This document shows positions 2,014-27,860 of a stretch of 64,000 nt of DNA, one piece after another. The notes below the pieces were generated by a model. That model was not told the origin of the DNA, did not search any database, and saw only the letters and a program-made list of their open reading frames with translations. The position numbers were made by a program, and so were the translations under genes. Numbering within the stretch: position 1 is the stretch's first letter; every line of letters begins with the position of its first letter. Source of the DNA: Curtobacterium sp. S6 (GTDB taxonomy: Bacteria > Actinomycetota > Actinomycetes > Actinomycetales > Micrococcaceae); assembly GCF_000710345.2 (NCBI RefSeq), contig NZ_JHEL01000009.1, forward strand, positions 62,001 through 126,000. The letters run 5' to 3'.

Positions 2014-2068
2014 TCCCCGGCCGGCCCCGGGCCGCCCCCACCGCTTCACCGACCCATAGGAGGAACTC

Positions 2069-3694: not shown

Positions 3695-3771
3695 GACCGC
3701 CTGCCCGCGACCGAGGCCCGAGCTGGCGTTCCGCACCGAGGGGGCGTTCCGCGGCGGGGCGGGACACGCGC

Positions 3772-4494: not shown

Positions 4495-4581
4495 CCCATC
4501 GACTTTACCCGGCGAGCCACCCCGAAAGGCACGGAGTTTTGCCTGGGACCCGCTTCACAAATTTCAATCGCACCGATACAG

Positions 4582-4602
4582 TAAACGAAAATGATTCGTT
4601 TA
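4582..4602. promoter_or_regulatory. 21-bp palindromic operator upstream of puo
   Basis: TAAACGAA, five bases (AATGA), then TTCGTTTA: eight-base arms with no mismatch, in the region between the divergent TetR and puo genes. Size and symmetry fit a TetR dimer site. It ends 32 bases before the preferred puo ATG, so bound repressor would sit over the promoter or early transcript. It also argues against the upstream ATGs at 4539 and 4602 as the puo start. Confidence 0.6.
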
Positions 4603-4634
4603 TGAATGACGAAGCCACAGCGAAAGGTCGAACC

Positions 4635-7003: not shown

Positions 7004-7083
7004 CGTATCATGAAACAAAATTTTCCTAATGGTTAACCGCGGCGCGATCCGTGCCGTGGGACGTGTGAAAGAGGTTTGAGACC

Positions 7084-8559: not shown

Positions 8560-8604
8560 TTCCCGCCATCGCCACCCACCCAGATATGTAGCAGGAGGAA
8601 CCTC

Positions 8605-10035: not shown

Positions 10036-10064
10036 CCGATCGTTCGTAGAAAGAGACTTCACTG

Positions 10065-11405
10065 ATGACAGAGATTTCCTACCGCCTCCCCCAGGAGATT
10101 CGGCTCACCGGGCAGTTCCCCGGGCCCAAGTCGCAGGCCCTCGCGGACCGTCGGGCCAAGGTCGTGCCGGGCGGCGTGGCCTCCTCGGTTCCGGTCTACG
10201 CGGCGGACGCCGACGGCGGCGTGATCGTCGACGTCGACGGCAATTCGATGGTCGACCTCGGCTCGGGCATCGCCGTGACCACGGTCGGCGCGTCGGCACC
10301 CAAGGTGGTCGAGGCCGTCCAGGAGTCCGCGCAGCACTTCACGCACACGTGCTTCATGGTCACGCCGTACGAAGGCTACGTCGCGGTCGCCGAGAAGCTC
10401 GCCGAGGTCACCCCGGGTGACTTCGAGAAGCGCTCGGTCCTGTTCAACTCGGGCGCCGAGGCCGTGGAGAACGCCGTGAAGGTTGCCCGCGCCGCGACCG
10501 GCCGCAACGCCGTCGTGGTGTTCGACCACGCCTACCACGGCCGCACCAACCTCACGATGGCCCTGACCGCTAAGGCCGCGCCCTACAAGCGCGGCTTCGG
10601 GCCGTTCGCCTCCGAGGTGTACCGCGTCCCGATGAGCTACCCCTACCGCGAACCCGCGGAGATCGACGGCAAGGAAGCCGCGGAGCGCGCGATCCTGCAG
10701 ATCGAGAAGCAGATCGGCGGCCAGGACGTGGCCGCGATCCTGATCGAGCCCATCCAGGGTGAGGGCGGATTCATCGTTCCGGCCGAGGGCTTCCTGCCGC
10801 GGCTGGCCGAGTGGGCCCGCGAGAACGGTGTCGTCTTCATCGCCGACGAGGTCCAGGCGGGCTTCTGCCGCACGGGCAAGTGGTTCGCCGTCGATCACGA
10901 AGGCGTCGAGCCGGACCTGGTGGCCATGGCCAAGGGCATCGCGGGCGGCATGCCGCTGTCCGCCGTGACCGGCCGCGCCGACCTGCTGGATGCCGTGGGC
11001 CCCGGCGGCCTCGGCGGAACCTACGGCGGCAACCCCGTGGCGTGTGCCGCGGCGCTGGCCTCGATCGAGACCATGGAGGAGTGGAACCTGACCGATCGCG
11101 CCGCCGCGATCGAGAAGTCGGTCCGCTCGGCCCTCGAACCCCTCGTCGACGAGCTCGACATCGTGGGCGAGGTCCGCGGACGCGGGGCCATGATGGCCGT
11201 CGAATTGGTCGCGGACTCCGGCTCCAAGAAGCCGCATCCCTCGGCGGCCAAGGACATCGCGGCCTACTGCCTTGAGCGCGGCGTCGTGACGCTGACCTGC
11301 GGAACCTACGGAAACATCATCCGATTGTTGCCTCCGTTGACGATCGGCGATGAGCTCTTGGGCGAAGCGTTGGATATTCTCGTGGCGGGCATCCGCTCGA
11401 TCTAA
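10065..11405 (+). CDS. gabT: 4-aminobutyrate aminotransferase
   Basis: 446 residues, class III PLP aminotransferase. The PLP-binding Lys lies in LVAMAKGIAGGMPLS, after the FIADEVQAGF segment that holds the cofactor-contacting Asp. VFDHAYHGRTNLTM is typical of GABA/ornithine-type transaminases. It converts GABA and 2-oxoglutarate to succinate semialdehyde and glutamate, between PatD and GabD in the pathway. A strong hairpin follows the stop codon. Confidence 0.92.
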   Translation: MTEISYRLPQEIRLTGQFPGPKSQALADRRAKVVPGGVASSVPVYAADADGGVIVDVDGNSMVDLGSGIAVTTVGASAPKVVEAVQESAQHFTHTCFMVTPYEGYVAVAEKLAEVTPGDFEKRSVLFNSGAEAVENAVKVARAATGRNAVVVFDHAYHGRTNLTMALTAKAAPYKRGFGPFASEVYRVPMSYPYREPAEIDGKEAAERAILQIEKQIGGQDVAAILIEPIQGEGGFIVPAEGFLPRLAEWARENGVVFIADEVQAGFCRTGKWFAVDHEGVEPDLVAMAKGIAGGMPLSAVTGRADLLDAVGPGGLGGTYGGNPVACAAALASIETMEEWNLTDRAAAIEKSVRSALEPLVDELDIVGEVRGRGAMMAVELVADSGSKKPHPSAAKDIAAYCLERGVVTLTCGTYGNIIRLLPPLTIGDELLGEALDILVAGIRSI

Positions 11406-11430
11406 CCTTCGAGCTTCCGAGCTCTTGGAC

Positions 11431-11470
11431 AACGGTGCGCGGTCCTCCGGTGGGAGGGCCGCGCACCGTT
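11431..11470 (+). terminator. Strong hairpin after gabT
   Basis: AACGGTGCGCGG pairs perfectly with CCGCGCACCGTT, and the stem continues inward through TCCTC/GAGGG, giving about 17 pairs around a six-base loop. There is no T-run after it, so it would be an I-shaped actinobacterial terminator or a partial terminator or mRNA stabiliser that lowers expression of the permease gene downstream. Confidence 0.65.
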
Positions 11471-11499
11471 GCCGCAGTCCCCCGGCAGAAAGATCCTCC

Positions 11500-12954
11500 A
11501 TGAGTCACTCCCCCTACGACGAGCCCGTCTCGCCCCAAACCTCGATGGGCTCGACGGCTCATCGGCGTCGTTCCGGCGAACCCGCCGGCAAGAAACTTAA
11601 ATCGCGCCACGTCACCATGATCACCCTCGGCGGGATCATCGGTGCGAGCCTCTTCGTGGGGTCAGGCAACGTCATCCGCTCCGTCGGCCCGGCCGCTGTG
11701 GTCTCCTACCTCATCGGCGGGCTGCTCGTCTTCCTGGCGATGCGCATGCTCGGCGAGATGGCGGCGTCCCGGCCGGCCATCGGCTCCTTCATGGAATACG
11801 CCCGCGTCGGGCTCGGCGATTGGGCCGCGTACCTGGTGGGCTGGCTCTACTGGTACTTCTGGGTTGGGGTGCTTGCCTATGAATCCGTGCTCGGCGGGGA
11901 GACCCTGCACGGGTGGTTCCCCGCGGTTCCCGCGTGGGCCGGTTCCTTCGTCCTGCTGGCCATGTTCGTGGGCACCAACCTGATCTCGGTCCGCACGTTT
12001 GGTGAGGTCGAGTTCTGGCTCGCGAGCATCAAGGTCATCTCGATCGTCGTCTTCCTGGGCGTGGGCGTCCTCTTCGCCCTGGGCTGGTGGCCGCACGCCG
12101 ACTTCTCGGTCGGCAATTTGTGGCAGCACGGCGGATTCGCCCCGCATGGCTTCGGCGTCGCCTTCACGGGCGTGGCCCTGGTGATCTTCTCCTACTTCGG
12201 GACCGAGATCGCGGTCATGGCCGCCGCCGAGTCGGAGGACCCTGCCCGTGGCATTCGGCAAGCCACCTCGACCGTCATCTGGCGCATCCTGCTGTTCTTC
12301 GTCGGCGCCGTCCTGGTGATCACCACCGTGATCCCGTGGAACGAGCTGCCGGTCCCGACCGATGTCTCCCAGGCCCCCTTCACCCTGGCCTTCGCCAAGT
12401 TCGGCCTTCCCGGCGCGGACCTGGTGATGCAGCTGATCATCTTCACCGCGGTGCTGTCCGTGCTGAACTCGGGGCTATATTCCGCCTCGCGCATGTTTGC
12501 GGCCCTGGCGGATCAGGGCTTCGCGCCGCAGTTGGTGACCAAGCGGTCCCGCCACGGCGTGCCGTACATGGCCCTGCTGGCCTCCACGATCGGCGGGGTG
12601 GTCGCCACCATCGTCAACTTCGCCGCTCCCGAGTCCGGCGTTTTCGACTTCATCATGAACTCAGCGGGCCTCGTCGCGCTGTTCGTCTACGTGTTCATCG
12701 CGCTCACGCAGATGAACCTGCGGCGCAAGATGACGCCCGAGGAGCGCGCGGGTCTCAAGCTCAAGGTCTGGCTGCACCCGTGGCTGAACATCCTGCTGAT
12801 GGCGGGCGTCGCTTTCGTGCTGGTGGTCATGCTGACCACCGAGGACGGGCGAAGCCAGGTGTGGACCAGCCTCATCGCGACCGTCGTGCTGCTGGTGTTC
12901 TGGCCCTTCGTGCGTCGCGGGCTCAAGAAGCGGAAGGCCGCCGGGCAGGCGTGA
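11500..12954 (+). CDS. gabP: GABA/amino acid permease (AAT family)
   Basis: 484 residues from the ATG at 11500; the reading frame extends further upstream but crosses the hairpin, so the later start is preferred. A basic N-terminal tail is followed by about 12 membrane segments. The first carries TLGGIIGASLFVGSGNVI, the amino acid transporter (AAT) signature of GabP/AnsP/AroP relatives. Location after gabT makes GABA the likely substrate. The last 32 bases overlap the convergent membrane-protein gene. Confidence 0.8.
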   Translation: MSHSPYDEPVSPQTSMGSTAHRRRSGEPAGKKLKSRHVTMITLGGIIGASLFVGSGNVIRSVGPAAVVSYLIGGLLVFLAMRMLGEMAASRPAIGSFMEYARVGLGDWAAYLVGWLYWYFWVGVLAYESVLGGETLHGWFPAVPAWAGSFVLLAMFVGTNLISVRTFGEVEFWLASIKVISIVVFLGVGVLFALGWWPHADFSVGNLWQHGGFAPHGFGVAFTGVALVIFSYFGTEIAVMAAAESEDPARGIRQATSTVIWRILLFFVGAVLVITTVIPWNELPVPTDVSQAPFTLAFAKFGLPGADLVMQLIIFTAVLSVLNSGLYSASRMFAALADQGFAPQLVTKRSRHGVPYMALLASTIGGVVATIVNFAAPESGVFDFIMNSAGLVALFVYVFIALTQMNLRRKMTPEERAGLKLKVWLHPWLNILLMAGVAFVLVVMLTTEDGRSQVWTSLIATVVLLVFWPFVRRGLKKRKAAGQA

Positions 12955-13546
12955 GCCGGGCCCCGGGGCCGCGGCGGAAGTACCAGGTGTAGAAGGCCAC
13001 CCACCCGCCGTAGAACACGACCGGCAGGCACGGTTGGAGCGCCGGCGGCAGATGGGACCGGCCGGCGGCACCCGCCGCGCCGACTCCACCGGTGACCAGG
13101 GCAAACCGCACCCACCGCGCGGGGACGCTGACCACGAGGAAGCGCCCCAGGGGCCGCCGTTGCCTGCCGTGGGCCAGGGCGAAGAGCTTATAGGGCACGC
13201 CTCGGGGAGGGCCGAGCAACAGCGCGACCTCCGGCGAACGGAGGACGGCCCGCTCGGTCTCCTCGACCAGGGGCCGATCGATGCCTGGGATCTTGGTGAC
13301 CAGCTCCCGGCATCGCTCGGGGTCCACGGACCGGCCGACCGCGTACATGCAGAGGCCGCCTGCGAGCGCCCCGGCGAGGGCGTCCGCGGTGGAGGCCATG
13401 CCGCGGCGAGGGGACCGCAGCGCGATCCGGCTGGTCCAGACGTCGGGAACGATGAAGAACGCGGTGGCCTCGGCAAAGCCCCACGCGGCGGCCACCAGAC
13501 GGTCGGCCAACCCGCGAGAAGGGCGAAGGGATCGACGGCGATGCAT
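12923..13546 (-). CDS. Conserved membrane protein, module copy 1
   Basis: 207 residues, function unknown. A GAAGGAG site before the ATG supports the start. The N-terminal half contains a hydrophobic stretch then DVWTSRIALRSPRRGMAST; two more hydrophobic segments follow (FLVVSVPARWVRFALVTGG and a C-terminal VVFYGGWVAFYTWYF). The W-T-S-x2-A-L-R-S-P-[RK]-R-G block recurs in the product of 17045-17794, so the two are paralogues. Both are divergent from a CDP-alcohol phosphatidyltransferase-like gene, which suggests a shared role in membrane lipid assembly. Confidence 0.7.
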   Translation of the reverse strand: MHRRRSLRPSRGLADRLVAAAWGFAEATAFFIVPDVWTSRIALRSPRRGMASTADALAGALAGGLCMYAVGRSVDPERCRELVTKIPGIDRPLVEETERAVLRSPEVALLLGPPRGVPYKLFALAHGRQRRPLGRFLVVSVPARWVRFALVTGGVGAAGAAGRSHLPPALQPCLPVVFYGGWVAFYTWYFRRGPGARLTPARRPSAS

Positions 13547-13628
13547 GGTACTCCTTCGTGACGTGCTCTACATTGAGTATGAGCCATTCACCCATCGGAT
13601 TCCGAGCCAGCACCAAGCGAGTATCAGC

Positions 13629-14423
13629 ATGTCCGACGCATCGTCACACGGTCACAGCACGTCCCCTACCCCCGACCCGAGCCCCAGCGCGCCGTGGGAA
13701 GCCACCGGCACCGACCGCCGGGCCATTCCCCAACGGACCACCGGCTGGGCCGCGCGGACGGCGGATCTCCTGCACTCCACGGGCCTCACGCCCAACCAGG
13801 TCTCCGTCGGGTCCGTGATCTTCGCGGCGATCGGGGCGCTGGCCCTCGTCCTGTCCGGCACGGTCGAACACGACGGCGCCCGGTCGGTGTGGCTGATCAT
13901 GACGGTCGTGTGTATACCCCTCCGGTTGCTGCTCAATATGCTCGACGGCATGCTCGCCGTCGAGAAGGGCATGCACTCGCCCACCGGCGACCTCTTCAAC
14001 GAAGTGCCGGATCGGGTCGCCGACGTCCTGCTCCTGGCGGCGGCCGGATACGCGACGCGCGGGCTCTGGGCCGTCGACGCGGGGCTCGACTGGGGGCTGT
14101 TTTTCGGTTGGAGCGCCGCGGTGCTGGCGCTCATGACCGCCTACATGCGCACTCTCGGTGCGGCGAACGGCGTCGGCAATTTCTTCCAGGGGCCGATGGC
14201 CAAGCCGCGGCGTATGTGGGTCCTGGTCGTCGCGTGCCTTCTGTCGCTATTCGAACCGCTCTTCGGGATGCGGGGGTTGTTCCTCGCGCTTGCCCTGGTC
14301 CTGATCGCGGTGGGTGCGGCGGTCACGGTCGGGATGCGCTGGTGGTTCGTGTCTCGGGCGCTCGAACGGAAGGCCGCCCCCGACGCCGCCGCGAGCTCCT
14401 CGCGCACCCGGGGCCCGGCATGA
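13629..14423 (+). CDS. CDP-alcohol phosphatidyltransferase-like enzyme (YnbA/YnjF-like)
   Basis: 264 residues; about 40 polar residues then five or six membrane segments. The active-site motif is readable as NMLDGMLAVEKG followed by GDLFNEVPDRVAD. Compared with the family pattern DxxDGxxAR(x8)GxxxDxxxD, the first and third Asp are Asn, as I recall for the YnbA/YnjF group, and the Arg is Val (residue 111). It would transfer a phosphatidyl group from CDP-diacylglycerol to an unknown alcohol. It overlaps the plsC-like gene (ATGA), and a cdsA-like gene follows: one lipid operon. The start lacks a strong RBS and could be slightly different. Confidence 0.78.
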   Translation: MSDASSHGHSTSPTPDPSPSAPWEATGTDRRAIPQRTTGWAARTADLLHSTGLTPNQVSVGSVIFAAIGALALVLSGTVEHDGARSVWLIMTVVCIPLRLLLNMLDGMLAVEKGMHSPTGDLFNEVPDRVADVLLLAAAGYATRGLWAVDAGLDWGLFFGWSAAVLALMTAYMRTLGAANGVGNFFQGPMAKPRRMWVLVVACLLSLFEPLFGMRGLFLALALVLIAVGAAVTVGMRWWFVSRALERKAAPDAAASSSRTRGPA

Positions 14424-15121
14424 GCCTAGGGGATCTCGCCCGGAACGGGCTGGCGCGCGTCCTGACCGCGGCCGAGGGCGTTCGGGTCACGGATCCCGAC
14501 GGCGGGCAACCAACCTTCCCGGATCAGGCGATCTACTACGCCAACCACTCGAGCCACCTGGATTTCGTGACCCTCTGGTCGGTGCTGCCTCCGCGTCTCC
14601 GCCGGCGCGTGCGGCCCATCGCGGCCCAGGACTATTGGGGATCCGGCATCAAGCAGAAGGTCGCCGAGGGGGTCTTCAACGCGTATCTCGTGGATCGGCA
14701 CGGTTCGGGGAAACGCGACGGGTCGGGTAGGACGCCGCCTCGCGCGAGTTCCGCGGGCGCCAGTCCCAAGGGTGCCGGCCAGCTCGCGGGAATGACGGCG
14801 GTGCTCGACGGCGGCGACTCGCTCATCATCTTCCCGGAGGGCACGCGCGGCGATGGCGAGCGGGTCGCTCGATTCCACGGGGGCCTGTACCGCCTGGCGC
14901 TGCACGACCCGACGATCCCCGTCATCCCGGTGACCCTGAGGGATCTCGGGAGAATTCTCCCGAAGGGCGAGGTCATCCCCGTTCCCCACCTTCCGACGGT
15001 CATCGTCCACGCCCCGCTGGTCGTGGGCCCGGGGGAGTCTCAGGAGGATTTCCTGAACAGGGCCCGCGATGTCTTGGACCGTTCGCTCCGGGGCCACGAC
15101 GAGGGGGAGGCGGAACGATGA
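14420..15121 (+). CDS. 1-acylglycerol-3-phosphate acyltransferase family protein
   Basis: 233 residues of the PlsC/LPLAT family. The HX4D catalytic block is seen in YYANHSSHLDFVTLWS and the phosphate-binding block in IIFPEGTRGDG. A Gly/Ser/Pro-rich loop of about 20 residues separates them and looks like an insertion relative to minimal PlsC. It likely acylates lysophosphatidate or a similar acceptor at the membrane to make phosphatidate for the CdsA-like enzyme next door. It is coupled by ATGA overlaps on both sides. Confidence 0.85.
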   Translation: MSLGDLARNGLARVLTAAEGVRVTDPDGGQPTFPDQAIYYANHSSHLDFVTLWSVLPPRLRRRVRPIAAQDYWGSGIKQKVAEGVFNAYLVDRHGSGKRDGSGRTPPRASSAGASPKGAGQLAGMTAVLDGGDSLIIFPEGTRGDGERVARFHGGLYRLALHDPTIPVIPVTLRDLGRILPKGEVIPVPHLPTVIVHAPLVVGPGESQEDFLNRARDVLDRSLRGHDEGEAER

Positions 15122-16104
15122 TCGGTCTCTTGGATGCCCAAGCGGGTCAGGTGTTCCTCGGCGTCGGCGGGGTCTTGGTCGTCGCCTCGGTCATCACCGG
15201 GATCCTGGCCGTGCGGCTGAAGGGCCGGGAATCGAGCCTGGTGTCGAACCTGAAGCAGCGCGTCGGCGCGTGGTGGATCATGGCGGCCATCCTCGCGCTG
15301 GTCCTCATGGGCGGAGAAACCGTCACCCTGGTGTTCTTCCTCGTCCTCTCGTTCCTGGCCCTGCGGGAATTCTTGACGATCCTGCCGACCTCCCACCGCG
15401 ACCACAAGGTGCTGGTGTGGCTGGTCTTCGTGATCCCGCCGCTGAACTACTACTTCCTGTGGGACCACTCCTACGGGTTCTTCTCGGTGCTGATCCCGGT
15501 TTACGCGTTCCTGTTCCTCCCGGCGCGCAACGCGTGGGCGGGCCAGACGGAGGGCTTCCTCCAACGGACCGCGACGATCCAGTGGGCGCTGATGGTGTGC
15601 GTGTACGCGATGAGCTATCTGCCGGCCATCCTCCAGCTACCGGCCGCGATGACCACGGGCCGCGAGGCCGCGGAAGGATCCCCGCCGGGTTCCGGAGGCC
15701 CCATGGGCGCGCACCTGCTGCTGTTCTTGGTGCTCGTGGTTCAGGGCAGCGACGTCTTCCAGTACATCTGGGGGAAGACCATCGGGCGGCACCCCATCGC
15801 CCCGAGCGTCTCGCCGAATAAGACCGTGGAAGGTTTCCTCGGGGGCATCCTGACGGCGACGGCCCTGGGTGCGGGCCTCTGGTGGCTCACGCCGTTTTCC
15901 CCGGTCGCGGCCGCCGGGCTTTCCCTGGTGTGTTGCCTGCTGGGATTCGCCGGGGGCCTCGTGATGAGCGCGGTCAAGAGGGACCGCGGGATCAAAGACT
16001 TCGGCAACCTGATCGCCGGCCACGGCGGCATCATGGATCGCATGGATTCGCTGGTCTTCTCCGCGCCGGTGTTCTTCCACCTGATCAGGTTCTTCTATAC
16101 CTGA
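15118..16104 (+). CDS. Phosphatidate cytidylyltransferase (CdsA-like)
   Basis: 328 residues with about eight membrane segments. The CDP-diglyceride synthetase signature is clear at the C-terminus: SAVKRDRGIKDFGNLIAGHG then GIMDRMDSL, with the metal-binding acidic residues kept. It makes CDP-diacylglycerol from phosphatidate and CTP. The gene order phosphatidyltransferase-acyltransferase-cytidylyltransferase resembles the E. coli ynb cluster, so this is probably an accessory CdsA serving the adjacent transferase rather than the housekeeping copy. It overlaps the convergent MarR gene by 10 bases. Confidence 0.88.
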   Translation: MIGLLDAQAGQVFLGVGGVLVVASVITGILAVRLKGRESSLVSNLKQRVGAWWIMAAILALVLMGGETVTLVFFLVLSFLALREFLTILPTSHRDHKVLVWLVFVIPPLNYYFLWDHSYGFFSVLIPVYAFLFLPARNAWAGQTEGFLQRTATIQWALMVCVYAMSYLPAILQLPAAMTTGREAAEGSPPGSGGPMGAHLLLFLVLVVQGSDVFQYIWGKTIGRHPIAPSVSPNKTVEGFLGGILTATALGAGLWWLTPFSPVAAAGLSLVCCLLGFAGGLVMSAVKRDRGIKDFGNLIAGHGGIMDRMDSLVFSAPVFFHLIRFFYT

Positions 16105-16565
16105 GCCTCGGTCAGGGACAACGGCCCGTCCCCGGCGAATCGTCCGATCAGGCGCGCGAACGTGGCGAGTTCTTCGGCGGTCCATCCGCGCGTTCGCGCC
16201 GAGATGGCGGCGTCGAGCCGTTCTCGGGCGACCCCGATCGCGGCTTCTCCGGCGGGCGTCAGCGACAGTAGCGCCTTGCGCTCGTCGTGCGGCGGTCGGT
16301 CGATGCTGATCAGCCCGTCTCGCGCCAACGCCGAGCAGCGACGGCTCACGACGCTGCGGTCCAGACCCAAGGAGCCGGCGAGGGTCGCCGCACTGACCGA
16401 CTCGTGGGTCGAAAGGCATCGCGCCAGCGCGCTCAGGGTCGAATACGTACCGGCGTCGAAACCTTCGTGGACGCCCTCGGTGATCTCGGCGTACAGGCGC
16501 TTCCGGAAGTCCTGATTCAGGATCAGCCCGAGGGCATCGGAGATTTCTCGAGGTGCAGAGGTCAT
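16095..16565 (-). CDS. MarR-family regulator
   Basis: 156 residues with a winged helix-turn-helix: SVSAATLAGSLGLDRSVVSR followed by a wing with RPPHDERKALLSLT. This is the MarR architecture. It is divergent from the NTF2-like gene at 16614, with inverted repeats between them, so it most likely represses that gene and itself. The ligand is unknown. Confidence 0.88.
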   Translation of the reverse strand: MTSAPREISDALGLILNQDFRKRLYAEITEGVHEGFDAGTYSTLSALARCLSTHESVSAATLAGSLGLDRSVVSRRCSALARDGLISIDRPPHDERKALLSLTPAGEAAIGVARERLDAAISARTRGWTAEELATFARLIGRFAGDGPLSLTEAQV

Positions 16566-16605
16566 GAACCCATCTTAACCGTGCTCTTTGCACGATTCTG
16601 TTATG

Positions 16606-17882: not shown

Positions 17883-18812
17883 ATGGAGGACAGCACTCGC
17901 CGCACCACGTCAACCGGTTCCGCGCCGTGGGCCAGGGTCGCCGCGCCCTGGGAAAAGGTCGAATCCGCGGGGCGAGGCATCCCGCGAAACACTCGGAACG
18001 CGCTGGGCAGGCTCGCCGGCTCGGCGCACCGCGCGGGCATCCCGCCGAGGAAGGTCTCGGTGGCCGCCGCCGGGTGCGGGATCGGGGCGGCGGTGGCCAT
18101 CGCGCTGAGCTCGTGGGTGGGCTCGGACGTCGGTCGGTTCTGGTGGATTCTCGTCGCCGTGATCCTGTTGGGGGCCAGGCTCGCGGGCAATATCGTGTTG
18201 GAATCGTTGCGGATGAGGGTCTCGGGGGATCGACGCATCGGGGACATCCCGGTGAGCCTCGTGGACGCGGCCGCCGACGTCCTCCTTCTGATCGCGGCCG
18301 GAGGGGCCACCTTTCAGGTGTGGCTCACGCGCGACAACCTCGACGCCGGACTGACCTTCGCCTGGATCGCCGCGATTCTCTCGGTGGTCGCGCCGTATCT
18401 GACGGCACTGGGCGAGCTGGGCGGCGTCGGGCGTTTTACGCAGGGGCCGATGAGCAGCCGGAGGGCGATGTACGTGCTGATCCTGGCCGGAATCCTCAGC
18501 TGGTTCGAGGCGCTTGGTTCGAGCCGTGGGTACATTTTCGCGGTGGCCCTGCTCGTCATCGTGGCGGGATGGGCGACGACGATCGCGATGAGGCTGTGGT
18601 TTATGGGGCAGGCCCTGACCGCCCGTCGGGCCGAGGCGGCCGCGCGTGTCTCGTCGCAGACGCCCGGGAAGCCCGAACGTCGGGCCGACAATGCGCAACA
18701 GCCGGCGACGCGCCGGATCGACATGGTCCGACCGGACACGCCGGCTCGAAACATACCGAGACTGACAACCCATCGAACGCCCTCGTCTCCCCAACGGGAA
18801 CAATCCTCATGA
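17883..18812 (+). CDS. Degenerate CDP-alcohol phosphatidyltransferase-like membrane protein
   Basis: 309 residues, with AGGAG two bases before the ATG. The central 150 residues align by eye with the 13629-14423 product: ADVLLLIAAGGAT matches ADVLLLAAAGYAT, and GRFTQGPMSSRRAMYVL matches GNFFQGPMAKPRRMWVL. The catalytic segment is replaced: where the paralogue has LDGMLAVE this has VLESLRMR, and GDLFNEVPD becomes GDIPVSLVD. The Asp-Gly pair needed for metal and CDP binding is gone, so it is probably a non-enzymatic partner or a different activity. A polar tail of about 75 residues is unique to this copy. Confidence 0.7.
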   Translation: MEDSTRRTTSTGSAPWARVAAPWEKVESAGRGIPRNTRNALGRLAGSAHRAGIPPRKVSVAAAGCGIGAAVAIALSSWVGSDVGRFWWILVAVILLGARLAGNIVLESLRMRVSGDRRIGDIPVSLVDAAADVLLLIAAGGATFQVWLTRDNLDAGLTFAWIAAILSVVAPYLTALGELGGVGRFTQGPMSSRRAMYVLILAGILSWFEALGSSRGYIFAVALLVIVAGWATTIAMRLWFMGQALTARRAEAAARVSSQTPGKPERRADNAQQPATRRIDMVRPDTPARNIPRLTTHRTPSSPQREQSS

Positions 18813-20042
18813 GGAATGCGGTGGTTGAGGACGATCCCACAAATGTGGTGTCCAACCTCTCCTCCGAATCCAGAGGAAGGACGCCACGATAACGGTCATT
18901 CCGGCCAGGCCGGAAAAAGTGATGACGCCTTTGGGCTCACCGACGAGGTGAGGCGTTCCCAAAAATTTGCCCATGATGGAAAACGCCGCAAAGGAAGATC
19001 CGATGAGCGACCACGCCCTCCCTCGTATCTCTTCCGGCACAGCCTCGTAAACCGTATTTCTCACCCCGATGTTATGCATGGCGTTTCCTATCCCGCCCAT
19101 AACGAAGAATATGAGTATCACGGATAAATATTCCACGATCCCTTCGACAATAATGGCGACGCAAATGAGAGCTCCCCCGAGTATGAGCAAGGTGACCGGG
19201 TCAAATCGCCGCTTGGCCTTACTCGCGCGCACCGAAGCCAGGAGGGATCCCGTCGACCATGCGGCCAAGATGATCGAGTAACCCACCAGGCCCGGATCCA
19301 TGTCGAGGGGAATATCTCCCAACCGGGCACGGCCGATATCCTGCAGGTAGACGACGCCGGAGAGATCTTCCATGGTCGTGAATAACACGACAGCAAACAT
19401 GGCGGGTAAATACAGTTTGAGCGACGAGATTCCAGAGAGAGACTTCAAGCCGCGGCGAAGGTGTTTGAAGTCTGTGTGGTCGCGAGTCGTATCCGGACGC
19501 GCGCGAGGGATATGAATCGCTATGATCGCGAGAGAAATAAGGGTCAGCGCGGTTGCCACCCAGATTGCCCCACTGAATCCCAGCGAAAACAGAAGTGCCG
19601 ACAGAGGCGGTGTGACGATCGCTAAGAGGGAATTTATTCCGACTACGTAGGCGCTAGCGGTCTGCTCGGTGAATCCATGAAGGTTGGGTAATGCCTTGAA
19701 GACCACGGACCCGACCATAATCGAGCAAACCGTTTGCAGCGAAAGTAGCGCGACGTTAAGAGAGACGTTGGATGTCAGGATCATGCAGATCATGGTCATG
19801 GCCGAAACGAACAAAGACAATACCCACAGAGTCTTCGTAGGAATTTTGTCGACGGCCCATCCCACGGCTGGGGCTACCAGAATGCTGGGGAGCAGGGTGG
19901 CCAAACTGGTTGCGGTGAGCATCCATGTGCCACCCTGCTGGGAGATCGAGAAGATCATTAAGTAATACACTGAGCCTTCGGCGAATAAGGACAGTGTCAA
20001 AGCTATAGTTATTGGATATTTTGATAGTTTATTGCCGATCAT
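18807..20042 (-). CDS. MFS transporter of the low-GC cassette
   Basis: 411 residues, about 12 membrane segments. Motif A of the major facilitator superfamily is visible after the second segment (GWAVDKIPTKT). Codons are clearly more A/T-ending than in the flanking genes, a sign of transfer. Its start overlaps the methyltransferase end by 14 bases, so it is the last gene of that operon, probably exporting a product or toxic compound tied to the methyltransferase. Its stop overlaps the convergent 18812 gene by 6 bases. Confidence 0.85.
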   Translation of the reverse strand: MIGNKLSKYPITIALTLSLFAEGSVYYLMIFSISQQGGTWMLTATSLATLLPSILVAPAVGWAVDKIPTKTLWVLSLFVSAMTMICMILTSNVSLNVALLSLQTVCSIMVGSVVFKALPNLHGFTEQTASAYVVGINSLLAIVTPPLSALLFSLGFSGAIWVATALTLISLAIIAIHIPRARPDTTRDHTDFKHLRRGLKSLSGISSLKLYLPAMFAVVLFTTMEDLSGVVYLQDIGRARLGDIPLDMDPGLVGYSIILAAWSTGSLLASVRASKAKRRFDPVTLLILGGALICVAIIVEGIVEYLSVILIFFVMGGIGNAMHNIGVRNTVYEAVPEEIRGRAWSLIGSSFAAFSIMGKFLGTPHLVGEPKGVITFSGLAGMTVIVASFLWIRRRGWTPHLWDRPQPPHSS

Positions 20043-20853
20043 TTTTTGAGAATGAAATCGTAGCTACTTCATATCCTTGAGCCCCTCCGTCTCCAACTTG
20101 GGAGATGTTCCGATAGGCTACCGTCCATCCAAGGATATTAGCTATTTCGGTAATGTCCTGCTCTCTCCAAATTCTTTCATGGTGTGAGCAAAGCACCGGT
20201 TCTAACCCCTCGGACCTGCGATCTATAAACGAATTGTGAATTAGAAACGGAGCCTCATACTTTAGTCCTCTCCAGATGATCCGCTCTTTTCCAGACTCTG
20301 TCGTGTAAATTTCTGGAGTGAGTATACCGTTGAGTTCTGGAAACCTGGATACTGAACTATTTGTGTAGACTGAAATGGCAAACCGACCGACTGATGACAT
20401 GCACCTTTCGACATTTGAAAATATTTTTGAAACGTTTTTTATTGTGGTTAGTCCGTTGACTGATATCGCACCAAAATAAACGAAGTCAACGTTATTTAAT
20501 GGTATTTTGTCTGAGATAAAGTCAGCAAGAATAAATTCACCGTTGAAATTGCATTCCTCTTGTCTCTTGAGGAAACGATTGCGAGCCGAGGGGGAGGAGT
20601 CGACCCCGATAAATGTGGAATTGGTGCCACCATCTTGAAGTTGTTTTATTAGCCTGCCGTCTCCGACCCCCAAATCCACTATGACGTGATCGTTCTCATT
20701 GACGTGCTCTGATAGGGATTCTACATCCCATGATTGCTGCCAGGATGTATCCCTCATGAATTCACTGAGGGTTTCGTCGTAGTATCCCTCTGCTTGAAAT
20801 GTTTCTAAATCGTTTTGTAGCTTCTTAAAAGCGCCAAAATACTCATATTGCAT
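20029..20853 (-). CDS. Class I SAM-dependent methyltransferase of the low-GC cassette
   Basis: 274 residues. Motif I of Rossmann methyltransferases is at about residues 57-70 (VIVDLGVGDGRLIKQ), followed by the acidic strand end in FIGVDSSPSARNRF and a third strand in GEFILADF. Substrate unknown; I do not recognise an rRNA-methylase subfamily. A GGAG site seven bases before the ATG supports the start. It sits between an 11-codon peptide gene plus hairpin upstream and an overlapping MFS gene downstream. Composition is much more AT-rich than the window. Confidence 0.82.
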   Translation of the reverse strand: MQYEYFGAFKKLQNDLETFQAEGYYDETLSEFMRDTSWQQSWDVESLSEHVNENDHVIVDLGVGDGRLIKQLQDGGTNSTFIGVDSSPSARNRFLKRQEECNFNGEFILADFISDKIPLNNVDFVYFGAISVNGLTTIKNVSKIFSNVERCMSSVGRFAISVYTNSSVSRFPELNGILTPEIYTTESGKERIIWRGLKYEAPFLIHNSFIDRRSEGLEPVLCSHHERIWREQDITEIANILGWTVAYRNISQVGDGGAQGYEVATISFSKNDRQ

Positions 20854-20872
20854 TTGAATGCTCCGGCCCCAA

Positions 20873-20902
20873 GGGGTGCCCCGTTTGGCTACGAGGCACC
20901 CC
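20873..20902 (-). terminator. Hairpin between the 11-codon peptide and the methyltransferase
   Basis: GGGGTGCC and GGCACCCC form a perfect eight-pair stem around a 14-base loop, 25 bases after the peptide stop codon and about 20 bases before the methyltransferase start. On the minus strand it is followed by TTGGGGCC rather than a T-run. It could be a partial terminator, an attenuator or an element controlling access to the GGAG site just after it. Confidence 0.55.
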
Positions 20903-20927
20903 TGTAATGTTATTAAGGAACTATAGT

Positions 20928-20963
20928 TTACGCGGTGGGATTAGGATATTGCGCTAAATGCAT
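20928..20963 (-). CDS. Eleven-residue peptide (leader or precursor)
   Basis: Reading the minus strand gives ATG followed by ten codons and TAA: MHLAQYPNPTA. It has a near-ideal ribosome site (TTAGGAG, seven bases before the ATG), and a TATAAT box lies about 25 bases upstream of the ATG, giving a very short untranslated leader. A 10-bp palindrome (AACTATAGTT) covers its stop. It is the first cistron of the methyltransferase-MFS operon. It may be a leader peptide that senses ribosome stalling, or a minimal modified peptide whose tailoring enzyme is the methyltransferase. It is not microcin C-like, since it lacks the terminal Asn and a ThiF-type enzyme. Confidence 0.5.
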   Translation of the reverse strand: MHLAQYPNPTA

Positions 20964-20988
20964 CGAGTGTCTCCTAAGGTTGAATTTG

Positions 20989-20994
20989 ATTATA
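20989..20994 (-). promoter_or_regulatory. TATAAT -10 box of the low-GC operon
   Basis: A perfect TATAAT on the minus strand, about 25 bases before the 11-codon ORF. No TTGACA-like -35 is present at 16-18 bases upstream (the sequence there is AACCGT), which suggests an activator-dependent promoter. Confidence 0.5.
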
Positions 20995-21345
20995 GAAGAG
21001 TGATGGCCAACACGGTTGTAGGGTAGGCTGAACTGCTTCAAACTTGCAATATATTACGAATTATTTCAGCTCTGCGTGTGAGGCCTCCGAGGCCAATGCA
21101 TGGCGAGGGTGGTGTGGTTGCTGATCGTTGGTCTAGCGGCGCAAATGTCAGAAAGAGCCATTGACCAGTGGATATACCGTTAGTAAGTGCGTGATTGGGG
21201 TGGCCCATCAGGTCTGATGAGGTCGCCCTCGGCGACGAGGCTGACTTCGGGTTCCTGTCAGGTCCCGGCGATCTTGGCGGAACCGGACGTCGCCGAAACC
21301 TGCCATGGAGAAGCCTGGGGGACGTTCAGCGTCCCGTGTATCGGC
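20995..21345. other. Gene-poor gap between low-GC cassette and ArsD-like gene
   Basis: About 350 bases in which composition climbs from AT-rich back to the high-GC background, so the cassette boundary lies here, around 21060-21190. I see no tRNA, transposase or repeat at the boundary. A short hairpin, GGGACG-TTCAG-CGTCCC (21319-21335), lies 11 bases past the end of the ArsD-like gene and may be its weak terminator. Confidence 0.5.
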
Positions 21346-21924
21346 CTAGTGGCCGCCGCACCCGCAGGATCCGCCGCAGCATCCGCCGGAGTCGGCATTC
21401 CTGGATGAGTCTTCGGGCAAGGGAAGGCCGTCGCCCGTATCTCCGCCCATGAGATTGCGGCGGGCACCGATCTCGGGGCCCCCGCGAGGCTTCTCCCGAA
21501 CGCCCGCCAGGACCGCGGCGAATCCGGCCGGTTCCGGCTTCTCCGCGGGTGCTCCGACCGCGCCCGGGGTCTGCCGGCCCCCGGGCCCGCAGGCCGCGGC
21601 CGCCGCGGAAAATCGCGGGTCTTTGCGCTTGGGTGCGCGGGCCTTGGCGAAGCGCTGCATCTGCTCCGCGGTTGGATACATCCAGGAGACGACGATCTGC
21701 GGGCCGAGCAGGGTAATGGGCAGGACCATGTCCCCGGAGGCCGCGAGCATGTCCGCGACGTGTTCGCATTCTTCGAAGGCCCACTCGTCCTCACCGCGCA
21801 CGTACACGGTGATCGGGTAGCCTTCTTGGGCCAGCGACGCCGCGGCGTCGAGGAACGCCTCCCGCTCGGCATCCTCGGGGCCGCCGGCGGGGATGAAAAC
21901 CTCTACCTCAGTCAGATCGGACAT
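21346..21924 (-). CDS. ArsD-like thioredoxin-fold protein with Cys-rich tail
   Basis: 192 residues from the ATG at 21924, with GGAGGAG seven bases upstream. The N-terminal part resembles ArsD: VEVFIPAGGPEDAEREAFLD, then VLPITLLGPQIVVSWMYPTA, which parallels the LPxTLVxGxxxxxGxYPT core of ArsD. The ArsD N-terminal Cys pair is absent. Instead, after a Pro/Ala/Gly-rich linker, the C-terminus ends GGCCGGSCGCGGH, a probable metal-binding tail. No arsA/arsB gene is adjacent. A metallochaperone role is inferred. Confidence 0.55.
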   Translation of the reverse strand: MSDLTEVEVFIPAGGPEDAEREAFLDAAASLAQEGYPITVYVRGEDEWAFEECEHVADMLAASGDMVLPITLLGPQIVVSWMYPTAEQMQRFAKARAPKRKDPRFSAAAAACGPGGRQTPGAVGAPAEKPEPAGFAAVLAGVREKPRGGPEIGARRNLMGGDTGDGLPLPEDSSRNADSGGCCGGSCGCGGH

Positions 21925-22041
21925 TGTCTCCTCCACGTTGAATCACAGCCCATCGTCCTCCGCGAGCGGCCGGAACACCAAGCGTGTTCGCGAGGCGCCG
22001 ACCGGACGCGCAGAACAGGGCGGTGGATGAGAGCCCCCGAA

Positions 22042-23679: not shown

Positions 23680-24390
23680 CTAACCGACCAGGAAGCGACC
23701 TACCAGGAAGTACCGGGCGGCGTCGGCAAGGAGCAGAATGCACACCGCGGCGATGGTCAAGGGAATCGCGATGCGGATCCACCGGCGGGCCGCGGACCAA
23801 GCCGCACCGATCCACTCGGCGACCCTCCCGTGGCGATTGAACAGCACGGCGACACAGAGGATGAACAACGGCACCTGAGAGATGATGGCCCACACGATGA
23901 ATGCCGGGACGACGATCCACGGGGGATGGTGCGAGGAGAGCCCGATCGTGACGACGAACGGCACATCCGCGGTGACGAGCGCGACGAATCCGAGCGCGAC
24001 CACCAGGAGCCCCGTGAGGCTCCGGTTCTTCTGGTCCTTCTCCTCGGGCGGGTCGTTACGGTGGGCCCAGCGGTATCCGGCGTAGCCGAGGCCGACGGCG
24101 GCCACGATCACCTCGGCCCCGGCCGCCCAAGCGCCGGCGCGCAGGAGCGAGTGCCAGGGGATCTCGGCCAGATGCTCGCCGAGGAGGCGCGAGAGAAGAA
24201 TCCCCCACAGGGCCGTTCCCAGGATCAGCACCGCTCCGAAGAGCAGCACGTCTCTGCGGGCCTTCGCGGGCCCGCGACCCGGGGCGGAGGATCGCGCGGC
24301 CATGTAGACCGCGGCGATCAGGGCGGGGGCCGGGTCGAAGCCCCCGATGCCGAGCCCCGAGGCGACCCCGAAAAACTGGAGTTCGTTCAT
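23680..24390 (-). CDS. Integral membrane protein coupled to lysX
   Basis: 236 residues from the ATG at 24390, which overlaps the lysX stop (ATGA). About six membrane segments; the opening GVASGLGIGGFDPAPALIAA and a charged loop DPPEEKDQKNRSLTGLL between segments 3 and 4 recall the GAP/Sap (LysE-like) exporter fold, but I cannot be certain. Coupling to lysX suggests a role in moving or placing aminoacylated lipid, which is an inference. Confidence 0.55.
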   Translation of the reverse strand: MNELQFFGVASGLGIGGFDPAPALIAAVYMAARSSAPGRGPAKARRDVLLFGAVLILGTALWGILLSRLLGEHLAEIPWHSLLRAGAWAAGAEVIVAAVGLGYAGYRWAHRNDPPEEKDQKNRSLTGLLVVALGFVALVTADVPFVVTIGLSSHHPPWIVVPAFIVWAIISQVPLFILCVAVLFNRHGRVAEWIGAAWSAARRWIRIAIPLTIAAVCILLLADAARYFLVGRFLVG

Positions 24391-27300
24391 TCCACGGACG
24401 CCGAATCCGGCCCCGAGGCCTTGCGGGGAGCGGACCGGAGGCGAGGATTCGAGCCCGGCCGCACGAAGGGAAAGGCCAAGACCCCGCGGATGGGTGCTCC
24501 CGTGAGCATCATGATCAGGCGGTCGATGCCGATGCCCATGCCGCCCGTGGGCGGAAGGCCGGTCTCCAGGGCATCGAGGAAGTCCTCGTCGATCTGCATC
24601 GCCTCGAGGTCGCCCGCGGCGGCCTTGAGGGACTGCTCGGTGAGGCGGCGACGTTGCTCGAGCGCGTCGGCCATCTCGGAGTAGGCGGTTCCCATCTCGG
24701 TGCCGTTGATGACCAGGTCCCACCGTTCGGCGAGGCCCGGCTCGCTACGGTGCGGACCCGCCAGCGGGGAGGTCTCCACGGGGAAGTCCTTGTAGAACGT
24801 GGGGCGGGAGGTCTTGGCCTCGACCAGTTCGCCGTAGAGCTCTTCGATGACCGCGCCCGGACCCATGTCGTCGCGGACGTGAATCTCGTGCTCGCGGGCC
24901 AGGCGCAGGAGATCCTCGAAGTCGGTGTCGAGGCCCACGGGCCGCCCCACGGCCTCAGACAGGGCCTGGCACACGCTCACGACCGGCCACGGGCCGGAGA
25001 CGTCCGTCAGCACGGCCTCCTGGCGGGGATCCTTGGGATCCTCGCCGAGGCGCAACGGCAGAACCACCTCGCCGAAGACCTCGCGGGCGGCGTTCTTGAG
25101 GATGCGTTCGGTCAGCTCCCGCATGACGTTGTAGTCCGCGTACGGCTGGTAGGCCTCCAGCACGGTGAATTCGGGATTGTGCGTCGCGTCGGCTCCCTCA
25201 TTGCGGAAGTCGCGACCCAATTCGTAGACCGGTCCCATGTCGCCGACGACCAACCGCTTGAGGTACAGCTCGGGGGCGATGCGCAGGGTGAGGTCCACGC
25301 CGTAGGCATTGATGAACGTCTTGAACGGCCTCGCGCTGGCGCCGCCGTGGACCGTGTTGAGCATCGGGGTCTCGACCTCGAGGTAATTTTGCTCGTCGAG
25401 GGTCCGGCGGATCGACCGGATCGTCGCCGAACGGATCCGAAGGCGATGGGACTCGGCCGGGTTGACGATCAGATCCATCGAACGACGCCGGAGCCTGGCC
25501 TCGGGATCGGTGAAGGAATCGAACGGGATCGGGTGCAGGCACTTGGAGAGCATGTCCCAGGACTCCACGATTAGCGACGGCGTCCCGTTGCGCGAGGCGC
25601 CGATCCGGCCGCGCAACAGCACGTGGTCGCCGGTGTCGATCCAGCGGATGGCGCGGCGGGTTTCACTGCCGCACACCGAGTCGTCCAGGACAGCCTGGAC
25701 CACGGTTCCGTGTTCGTAGAGGTCCAGGAAGCTGACCTTGCCGTGACGGCGGATCGACCGGACGCGTCCGGTAACCGACAGCGCCGAATCCGCGGCGGGC
25801 ACGGGGGCCTGCGCGTGACCCGAGGCTCGCGTAGACTCGCCGGCCGCGTGCGAGCCGCTGCCGACGCGGGCCTCCGCGGCCTCGGGCGAGGCCAACAGGG
25901 ACGCGAAGGAACGCACGCTCATGCCCTCCCCGGTGCCCTTGGGGTAAGGCTCGATGCCGGCTTCCCGCATCTGCTCGAGGTGGGCGATGCGGTGCCGCGT
26001 CTGGTCGGACCACGTCGGTTCCAGGTCCTCGGCGGCCACCCGGCGTCGTTCGATCTCCCGGAGACGGCCGAGTTCGTGGTTGCCGAGGGTTCCCGCCTGA
26101 CTCGGTTTGTGCGTCAGCCAGGCGGGGAGGAAGCCCTCCGCCACCCCGCAGGCGATACCCACCGGGCCCAGCGTCACATAGGACTCGACGCAGATGTATC
26201 GCGGGACCCACGAGGGGCTGAATTTTTGGTTGAACTTATAGAGACGCTCGAGCTGCAGGAATCGGTCCAGAACCCCCAAGACCGAGGACCCAAACTTGGT
26301 CAGCGGGTTGGCCCCGAGCTCCTCGGAACGCGCGAAAGTCTCGCGGAACATCGCAAAGTTCAGGGAAACCCGGCCGACACCCAGGCCTTCGGCCTCCTCC
26401 ATCATCTTGACGATCATGAATTCCGTGGTGCCGTTGGGGGCCCCGGGGGCGCGCCGCATGACGTCGAGGGACAGCCCGTTGCCTCCCCACGGCACGAAGG
26501 AGAGCAGGCCGATGGGGGAGCCGTCGGGCGAGTAGGCCACGAGGATCACCGTGCGGTAGTCCGCCGGATCCCCCACCCGATTCAGGGCCATCGAAAAGCC
26601 CCGTTCGATCTTGCCGTGGCGCCACTCGTCGGTCAGCGAGGCGACGCGTTCGCGTTGCTCGTCCGTGAGGTCGCCCTGCCGGGCGATCTTGACGGTCACC
26701 CCCTCGCGTTCCAAGCGTTGGAAGCTGTGGCGGATCTCGGTCATCGACGTGTTGTTCAGGGAGAAGCGGTCCGGGTAGAGGATCGCCTCGTCGCCCATGC
26801 TGATGACCGTCATGCCGGCCCGCGCGTAGGCGCGGGCGCCGTCGCGGCTCGCGCTGATGACCGCGGGAATCCAGCCGTATTCGCGGGCCTCGCTCTTCCA
26901 CTCCTGGCTCGCGTTCTCCCAGGAGGCGTGTTCACCGATGGGATCGCCAGAGGCGAGCGAGACCGAGCCGAAGACGCGATAGGTCACGGCCGCGCGGCCG
27001 TCGTCGGAAAACGCGGTGGACTTCTCTCGGCGCGTGCCGAAATAGGCCAGCGAATCCTGATGCCCGTAATCACGCAGCAGGCTTCGCAGGCGAAGCTCGC
27101 GCTCGCCGGTCCACGAGTGCACCGGGCGGGCCGAGCGCAAGAAGACCCAGATCGCCACGATCGCGGTGATGCCGTAGACCGTGGAGATGATTTGGATGGA
27201 CCACGGAGGGATCCCGTGAAGGTGGCTCATGATCGCCGGGGAGGTTCCTCCCAGGGCGCGGAGCATCACGTGGCCGACGTCGGATGCGGAATCCAGTGGG

Positions 27301-27860
27301 AGGAAGATCCACGCGAGGAGCGCGGCGAGGACCAGACCGATCAGCAGGACCAAGAATGCGGCACCGTAGGAGGCCCGCACGATGCGCGCCGGGAACTCCC
27401 GTCGGCCGCGAAACAGCAGGAACAACATGACGAGGCCCACGACCGCCCCGACGTAATCCCAGACCGGGTGCTCTAAGGGGGCTTCGGCCCAGACCTCGTT
27501 CCATTGGTCCGAGATGGGGAAGGCGATGGCGGACAAGACGCCCAGCAAAACCCCGGTGAGCTGGAAGAACATGGCAGCCCACAGGCCGGCGCGCTTGCGC
27601 CGGAGCAACGCCCAGAAGATGACCGCGGTGATGACGAGCGTGATCAGGCTTCTCTCGACCGGGACGTTCAGGATGCCGAAGAGGAACTCGAAGACGCCGG
27701 TCCGGTCGTGACGCGTCGGTCGCGTGACGATCAGCGCGACGTTCATGAAGGTCGCCAGGGCGTAGAGCCAGATCATCAAGCGGGCCGTGCGGCGTCCCTG
27801 ATGGGCCCCTTCCGTGGCGCGAGAGGAGGAAGCGCGGTTCGAGGTGCGTCGGATGCTCAT
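24387..27860 (-). CDS. lysX: Bifunctional lysyl-phosphatidylglycerol synthase/lysyl-tRNA synthetase
   Basis: 1157 residues, the full LysX architecture. About seven membrane segments occupy residues 25-235; an MprF-type transferase domain follows (about 240-560, with AVISASRDGARAYARAGMT and FVPWGGNGLSLDVMRRAPG). Then an OB-fold (about 690-790) and a class II synthetase core with motif 2 around DFRNEGADATHNPEFTVLEA and motif 3 GGMGIGIDRLIMMLTG. It charges tRNA-Lys and transfers lysine to phosphatidylglycerol, lowering surface charge against cationic peptides. Preceded after three bases by a putative aminoacyl-PG hydrolase, and overlapped by a small membrane-protein gene. Confidence 0.93.
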   Translation of the reverse strand: MSIRRTSNRASSSRATEGAHQGRRTARLMIWLYALATFMNVALIVTRPTRHDRTGVFEFLFGILNVPVERSLITLVITAVIFWALLRRKRAGLWAAMFFQLTGVLLGVLSAIAFPISDQWNEVWAEAPLEHPVWDYVGAVVGLVMLFLLFRGRREFPARIVRASYGAAFLVLLIGLVLAALLAWIFLPLDSASDVGHVMLRALGGTSPAIMSHLHGIPPWSIQIISTVYGITAIVAIWVFLRSARPVHSWTGERELRLRSLLRDYGHQDSLAYFGTRREKSTAFSDDGRAAVTYRVFGSVSLASGDPIGEHASWENASQEWKSEAREYGWIPAVISASRDGARAYARAGMTVISMGDEAILYPDRFSLNNTSMTEIRHSFQRLEREGVTVKIARQGDLTDEQRERVASLTDEWRHGKIERGFSMALNRVGDPADYRTVILVAYSPDGSPIGLLSFVPWGGNGLSLDVMRRAPGAPNGTTEFMIVKMMEEAEGLGVGRVSLNFAMFRETFARSEELGANPLTKFGSSVLGVLDRFLQLERLYKFNQKFSPSWVPRYICVESYVTLGPVGIACGVAEGFLPAWLTHKPSQAGTLGNHELGRLREIERRRVAAEDLEPTWSDQTRHRIAHLEQMREAGIEPYPKGTGEGMSVRSFASLLASPEAAEARVGSGSHAAGESTRASGHAQAPVPAADSALSVTGRVRSIRRHGKVSFLDLYEHGTVVQAVLDDSVCGSETRRAIRWIDTGDHVLLRGRIGASRNGTPSLIVESWDMLSKCLHPIPFDSFTDPEARLRRRSMDLIVNPAESHRLRIRSATIRSIRRTLDEQNYLEVETPMLNTVHGGASARPFKTFINAYGVDLTLRIAPELYLKRLVVGDMGPVYELGRDFRNEGADATHNPEFTVLEAYQPYADYNVMRELTERILKNAAREVFGEVVLPLRLGEDPKDPRQEAVLTDVSGPWPVVSVCQALSEAVGRPVGLDTDFEDLLRLAREHEIHVRDDMGPGAVIEELYGELVEAKTSRPTFYKDFPVETSPLAGPHRSEPGLAERWDLVINGTEMGTAYSEMADALEQRRRLTEQSLKAAAGDLEAMQIDEDFLDALETGLPPTGGMGIGIDRLIMMLTGAPIRGVLAFPFVRPGSNPRLRSAPRKASGPDSASVE

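Follow-up and report, generated by a model that had tools for sequence, protein, structure and literature searches.

Organisation of the locus

The window, meaning the whole 64,000-nucleotide stretch that was analysed from a 2.75 Mb genome, contains an operon of a methyltransferase and an MFS exporter on its minus strand, headed by an unannotated short open reading frame (ORF). The following features were identified, with the basis of each given in brackets.

20994-20989, minus strand: possible -10 box TATAAT (direct reading)
20977-20971, minus strand: ribosome-binding site TTAGGAG of the short ORF (direct reading)
20963-20928, minus strand: 11-codon ORF encoding MHLAQYPNPTA and a stop, unannotated, candidate leaderless precursor peptide (reading, and comparison of AQYP)
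20928-20919, minus strand: 10-base palindrome AACTATAGTT, beginning on the final stop base (direct reading)
20903-20872, minus strand: predicted 13-pair hairpin 3' of the short ORF (folding)
20853-20029, minus strand: class I SAM-dependent methyltransferase, 274 aa (ORF and family matches)
20042-18807, minus strand: MFS exporter, 411 aa, TIGR00900-like, below the cut-off (ORF and family matches)

The -10 box, the ribosome site, the reading frame and the palindrome over its stop had all been described in the original prediction and were found as described, with seven bases (acactcg on the minus strand) between TTAGGAG and the ATG. The methyltransferase gene follows and, as claimed, overlaps the MFS gene, by 14 bases. 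A hairpin was likewise found after the short ORF, but with 13 pairs instead of the eight first counted: its arms, AGGGGUGCCUCGU and ACGGGGCACCCCU, include one G-U pair, the predicted energy is about -26 kcal/mol and there is no T run. The reported absence of a -35 box was borne out by a simple scan of the minus strand of 18700-21400, which gave no sigma-70 -35/-10 pair, and Rfam gave no match up to an E-value of 1 within 20700-21300.

The short ORF exceeds what is expected by chance: ORFs of 5-25 codons with AGGAG ahead of an ATG number four in the 64 kb, this one included, the six-frame translation of the window (127,996 residues) holds AQYP once, and two related operons carry the motif again.

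The operon had been called low in GC, and G+C is indeed 0.38-0.59 across 18.8-21.2 kb (200-base steps) against about 0.63-0.76 on either side. When this island was compared with three regions of the same genus, one genome (G006) matched both flanks and the other two matched one flank each. The segments of G006 that match window positions 17324 and 21350 are 561 bases apart and not 4.0 kb as in the window, so the island is absent from that genome.

Related operons and protein families

Two other methyltransferase-MFS operons were found, one in Rothia nasimurium and one on plasmid pGnpA106 of Glutamicibacter nicotianae. Their methyltransferases are 37% (R. nasimurium) and 44% (Glutamicibacter) identical to that of the window, and the MFS gene that follows in each encodes a protein 37% and 35% identical, respectively, to the window's exporter. 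The R. nasimurium operon (irhom_31, genome G011) lies on NZ_SPQC01000025.1 (42,823 bases), in the same genus as the window by the grouping used, which is taken to be Rothia; the window and R. nasimurium are referred to below as the Rothia loci. Its methyltransferase gene is downstream of a 1215-aa ORF, read as a putative relaxase-helicase, and the contig is also present in IMG/VR. Both the R. nasimurium and the Glutamicibacter copies look mobile.

The methyltransferase family is rare. Matches were obtained in 2 of 59 relatives; in wider samples, 2 of 395 genomes of the family (threshold 1e-15), 1 of 396 of the order (1e-20) and 1 of 198 of the phylum (1e-15) had one. Each count includes the window's own genome, and the genome samples overlap. 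Scans of genome contigs gave none in 11 stretches and then one, that of R. nasimurium, in 24. One of 72,556 plasmid records was matched, and the same record was returned by the other two queries. None was found in phages, and IMG/VR yielded the R. nasimurium contig and three partial matches.

The window methyltransferase scores above the Pfam cut-offs of Methyltransf_25, _31 and _11. With NCBIfam, matches of the three methyltransferases were far below cut-off throughout: the daptide RiPP methyltransferase model (NF041820) ranked first for the proteins of the window and of Glutamicibacter and in second place, behind BioC, for that of R. nasimurium, with 32, 35 and 39 bits for the three against a cut-off of 175, and the rRNA methyltransferase models NpmA (18 bits, cut-off 470) and Erm (18 bits, cut-off 212) were also below theirs. 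The matches are generic, since BioC, PMT, NpmA and Erm models score too. A profile search of the PDB (47 sequences) placed generic methyltransferases at the top, and an AlphaFold2 model from a two-row alignment had a mean pLDDT of 47. The MFS protein passes PF07690.

Conservation of the short peptide

The original prediction had proposed a test of peptide conservation at the amino-acid level in related operons, and had named homologous operons with no conserved short ORF as evidence against itself; at both of the other operons found, an AQYP short ORF is present. Each of the three methyltransferase-MFS loci known, all from one family, thus has a short ORF that encodes AQYP. The motif is absent from about 1.5 kb upstream, on the coding strand, of seven loci of the genus that have an MFS relative only, in genomes with no methyltransferase match. 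One such MFS relative (L020, genome G010) has GAGGAGG and a short ORF, MQQMIFGGAEA with a stop, about 65 bases ahead; it is unlike AQYP and may be a different hidden peptide or leader.

In R. nasimurium, AGGAGG is followed by MKTAQYPKPKPPTVM ahead of the methyltransferase, a peptide of 15 residues. The Glutamicibacter operon is preceded by an annotated 40-aa hypothetical protein, MTTAQMELSALEDLELNFDADAFVVENAQPDVEAQAQYPR, which ends in AQAQYPR; a search of plasmids with this peptide returned only itself. The two Rothia peptides have AQYPxP in common at residues 4-9 and have strong ribosome sites (TTAGGAG and AGGAGG). The three peptides agree in only four residues, and the Rothia pair has no counterpart to the acidic N-terminal part of the 40-aa peptide. 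The string YPKPKPP may resemble proline-rich antimicrobial peptides of insects; the window peptide does not contain it.

Amino-acid conservation offers a way to check an 11-codon ORF that was noticed by eye. The A, Q and Y codons of the window and R. nasimurium are GCG/GCA, CAA/CAG and TAT/TAC, respectively; those of R. nasimurium and Glutamicibacter are identical (GCACAGTACCC in both), so synonymous change is visible only against the window. When the sequence upstream of the R. nasimurium operon was shuffled, 4 of 3000 shuffles gave an ORF with five start-anchored identities to the window peptide, AQYP itself appeared in 6 of 3000, and 83 of 3000 reached five identities in the less sharp test with free offset. 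For the Glutamicibacter sequence, 0 of 1000 shuffles placed AQYP within an ORF of at most 80 aa.

Folding of the RNA after the short ORF

A stable hairpin is predicted after the peptide stop at all three loci; the sequences look unrelated and the position is what they have in common. Folding of the spacer after the peptide stop was compared with shuffled sequences, giving z-scores of -3.95 for the window (stop-to-ATG spacer; 0 of 500 shuffles as stable), -6.06 for Glutamicibacter (0 of 500) and -3.52 for R. nasimurium (0 of 200). Along the minus strand of the window, 25 of 21,322 stepped 36-nt windows reached -24 kcal/mol, the hairpin included.

Ribosome-masked folding was performed for a ribosome on each of the 11 codons of the window ORF, and in every case the predicted hairpin was unchanged and the accessibility of the methyltransferase start stayed at 0.29-0.30; length-stepped folding of the window leader gave no switch. 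For the 16 codons of R. nasimurium, on a stretch ending before the methyltransferase start, the pairing probability of the hairpin was 0.995-0.996. Alternative pairings of the hairpin arms were matched by 413 and 816 of 1000 shuffles in the window and by 427 and 927 of 1000 in R. nasimurium; the first of these, between the ribosome site of the ORF and the 5' arm of the hairpin, was rejected as a candidate since 413 of 1000 shuffles equal it.

The region between hairpin and methyltransferase in R. nasimurium (L003, 1385-1478) is C-rich and G-poor, with 37 C and 7 G in 94 bases. A stretch of this kind would suit Rho.

Searches for AQYP ORFs elsewhere

The pattern ATG..AQYP was matched in 6 of 59 genomes, two of the matches being the real loci. 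The other four (G001, G005, G035 and G054) were rejected, as they lie in ORFs of 80-172 codons with 45-176 more open codons upstream. RTG..AQYPxP was found in 28 of 395 family genomes, at 31 places listed, of which 30 were translated; on reading these 30, a strong ribosome site with a short free-standing ORF was seen only at the two known loci. The nearest other place (L028), a GTG-started ORF of 27 codons after GGAAG, was not accepted. A ribosome site followed by AQYP gave, in 396 order genomes, the window and one match inside a 68-codon ORF.

In IMG/VR, AQYP[KN]P was present on 11 contigs, among which that of R. nasimurium alone was recognised as related, and a ribosome site with AQYP on 59 contigs, 18 of them in ORFs of 45 codons or less. 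A tblastn search of the fetched IMG/VR stretches found the methyltransferase in that of R. nasimurium only. One of these (L107), with AGGAGG ahead of MQLAQYPSRHSLAFR, crosses other open frames of 195 and 209 codons. Among the matches listed from the open-licence literature, no relevant report was found of AQYP as a leader peptide or as a RiPP precursor peptide.

Oxygenase-like genes of the Glutamicibacter operon

The Glutamicibacter operon is larger: the 40-aa peptide is followed by two annotated genes that are oxygenase-like, then by the methyltransferase and the exporter, and the peptide lies 1.9 kb upstream of the methyltransferase. One of the two proteins (212 aa) has an HxD...H pattern by reading and no 2OG match in Pfam. 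Six other plasmid records match it, and context was taken from two. The relative in Metabacillus (tblastn, E 2e-4), annotated as a 2OG-Fe(II) oxygenase and itself with no 2OG Pfam match, has no peptide-cluster context. The relative in Streptomyces cadmiisoli, 35% identical and with a weak 2OG-FeII_Oxy_3 match (E 0.02), has a YcaO gene about 5 kb away, on the far side of a transposase, and NHLP bacteriocin exporters nearby.

The 315-aa protein contains HESLH and weakly matches the aKG-HExxH peptide beta-hydroxylase model (E 0.0035, 17 bits against a cut-off of 40). Two other records match, with context taken from one, plasmid pMchErm55 of Mycobacteroides chelonae, and IMG/VR gave nothing. The pMchErm55 relative (26%, E 0.003, HEALH) fits the aKG-HExxH model better (1.1e-6, 28.8 bits against 40). 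Its gene is next to a YcaO-like one; a 47-aa ORF lies upstream, and downstream is an MFS gene whose product is not a clear relative of the window's MFS protein. By guilt by association in these few cases, the context of the relatives points to peptide modification as the putative role of the oxygenase-like genes. No relatives of the two proteins were found in the two Rothia genomes, by searches of which one had no positive control.

Two of these surroundings are observations in their own right. Positions 4347-8155 of pMchErm55 (L071), where the 47-aa ORF and the YcaO-like, HExxH-type and MFS genes stand one after another, resemble a peptide-modification cluster, and positions 1740-16600 of the S. 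cadmiisoli plasmid (L070), with YcaO, a cupin, the 2OG-oxygenase-like gene and NHLP exporters, look like a peptide-type cluster.

Comparison with known peptide systems

The MccC pump of microcin C is an MFS protein. According to PMC6495379, microcin C operons have a precursor gene of 7 codons, then a terminator hairpin ahead of the enzyme genes, and a pump; the window operon resembles them in its very short candidate precursor gene, its predicted hairpin before the first enzyme gene (as at the other two loci) and its dedicated pump. It differs in that the AQYP peptides have no C-terminal Asn, ending in Ala (window), Met (R. nasimurium) and Arg (Glutamicibacter), and in that the three-gene unit has no MccB adenylating enzyme: MccB was looked for in the operon, and the window peptide is followed by the methyltransferase and MFS genes only, the methyltransferase being the sole enzyme. 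The same source divides microcin C precursors into groups of 7-8 aa and 17-56 aa, to which the split between short and long AQYP peptides may be similar by analogy; it also reports lower production when the precursor is artificially extended to 11 or more residues (PMC6495379), which makes the parallel in length imperfect.

Daptides are an actinobacterial RiPP class with a SAM methyltransferase, and their model was the best or second-best NCBIfam match here. Their clusters are described as having a precursor with an invariant C-terminal Thr, together with a DUF-RRE protein, an oxidative decarboxylase and an aminotransferase (PMC10036551); the AQYP peptides lack the C-terminal Thr, and the methyltransferases are below the NF041820 cut-off. 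Biarylitides, as PMC13417212 describes them, share a precursor gene too small for automatic annotation, but theirs encodes five residues that are cross-linked by a P450, whereas here the peptide has 11 residues and there is no P450. The system is therefore distinct from microcin C (Asn and MccB), daptides (score and C-terminus) or biarylitides (P450 and five-residue precursor).

Interpretation

We consider it probable (roughly 0.6) that the short ORF is a tiny precursor-peptide gene, and that the operon makes a modified, exported ribosomal peptide (RiPP) with the methyltransferase as its only enzyme. Of the two readings offered in the original prediction, a stalling leader and a minimal ribosomal peptide, it is the latter that is favoured, because all three methyltransferase-MFS loci found have an AQYP peptide and none of the seven MFS-only loci does, and because Glutamicibacter has the motif at a precursor-like C-terminus together with oxygenase-like genes. 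As expected of a RiPP, a short candidate precursor is conserved with enzyme genes and a modifying-enzyme gene would lie beside it, namely the methyltransferase at three loci, joined in Glutamicibacter by the weakly supported oxygenase-like genes. Against it, no protease was seen in the peptide-methyltransferase-MFS unit.

Under the precursor-peptide explanation, the peptide would be overproduced from a short transcript. The hairpin downstream of the stop codon would terminate or protect this transcript and so raise the ratio of peptide to enzyme. The methyltransferase would then modify the AQYP peptide as its substrate and the MFS protein would export the product, which may be active. The Rothia cassettes could be a reduced, leaderless form of a larger pathway, which in Glutamicibacter would comprise a 40-aa precursor ending in AQYPR and two putative oxygenases.

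A methyltransferase with an MFS protein also fits a resistance cassette. A first rival explanation takes the short ORF for a stalling leader by which a translation inhibitor is sensed and the operon, conferring resistance, is induced, as in Erm-type attenuated resistance operons, which have the same order of short ORF, hairpin and methyltransferase. The two genes are generally plausible as a resistance pair, AQYPxP stands at a fixed distance from the start in both Rothia loci and the hairpin lies between ORF and methyltransferase; chloramphenicol or linezolid would be compatible with Ala4 in the E site, and the Pro codons could suit an orthosomycin, stalling by which is reportedly linked to such codons. 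For chloramphenicol and linezolid, stalling with Ala in the E site is described in PMC13410324. However, the Erm-type mechanism involves an RNA structure that changes when the leader stalls, and none is predicted here: the hairpins of both Rothia loci were unchanged by ribosome masking, and the alternative arm pairings are no better than those of shuffled sequences. In Glutamicibacter, moreover, the motif ends a 40-aa peptide that is separated from the methyltransferase by two genes. For these reasons the stalling leader is judged unlikely.

In a second rival explanation, the methyltransferase and exporter protect, as resistance or immunity genes, against an AQYP-type peptide that relatives make, and the short ORF of the Rothia loci is left over as a relic or serves as a decoy. 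The lack of detected oxygenase-like relatives in the two Rothia genomes and the occurrence in the genus of MFS relatives with no methyltransferase speak for it, but a relic would hardly be expected to keep a strong ribosome site, and AQYP despite synonymous codon change, as the Rothia ORFs do, and we regard this explanation as quite improbable. In a third, the short ORF acts only on the stability of the transcript or on operon translation, and which amino acids it encodes does not matter. This would agree with a short ORF that has a good ribosome site and a stable hairpin after it; it is very improbable, since amino acids are conserved between the two Rothia loci and in the Glutamicibacter peptide.

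Returning to the precursor peptide, we tentatively propose, at slightly less than even odds, a new RiPP-like family built on an AQYP core, with a leaderless 11- or 15-residue peptide, a methyltransferase alone and one MFS exporter, for which the long-precursor cousin in Glutamicibacter would illustrate the gain or loss of a leader and of extra oxygenases. If the cassette makes a methylated AQYP peptide, three genes with one enzyme among them would suffice for a peptide pathway, and the purpose of a leader peptide could be addressed by comparing the short precursors with the long one of a related locus. Because annotation misses precursor genes a dozen codons long, entire peptide pathways can go unseen.

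Other genes in the window

Adjoining the low-GC island, positions 21346-21936 encode a protein of 196 aa that matches ArsD and has a Cys-rich tail (GGCCGGSCGCGGH). Positions 24387-27860 encode a 1157-aa protein in which a phosphatidylglycerol lysyltransferase domain is fused to a lysyl-tRNA synthetase.
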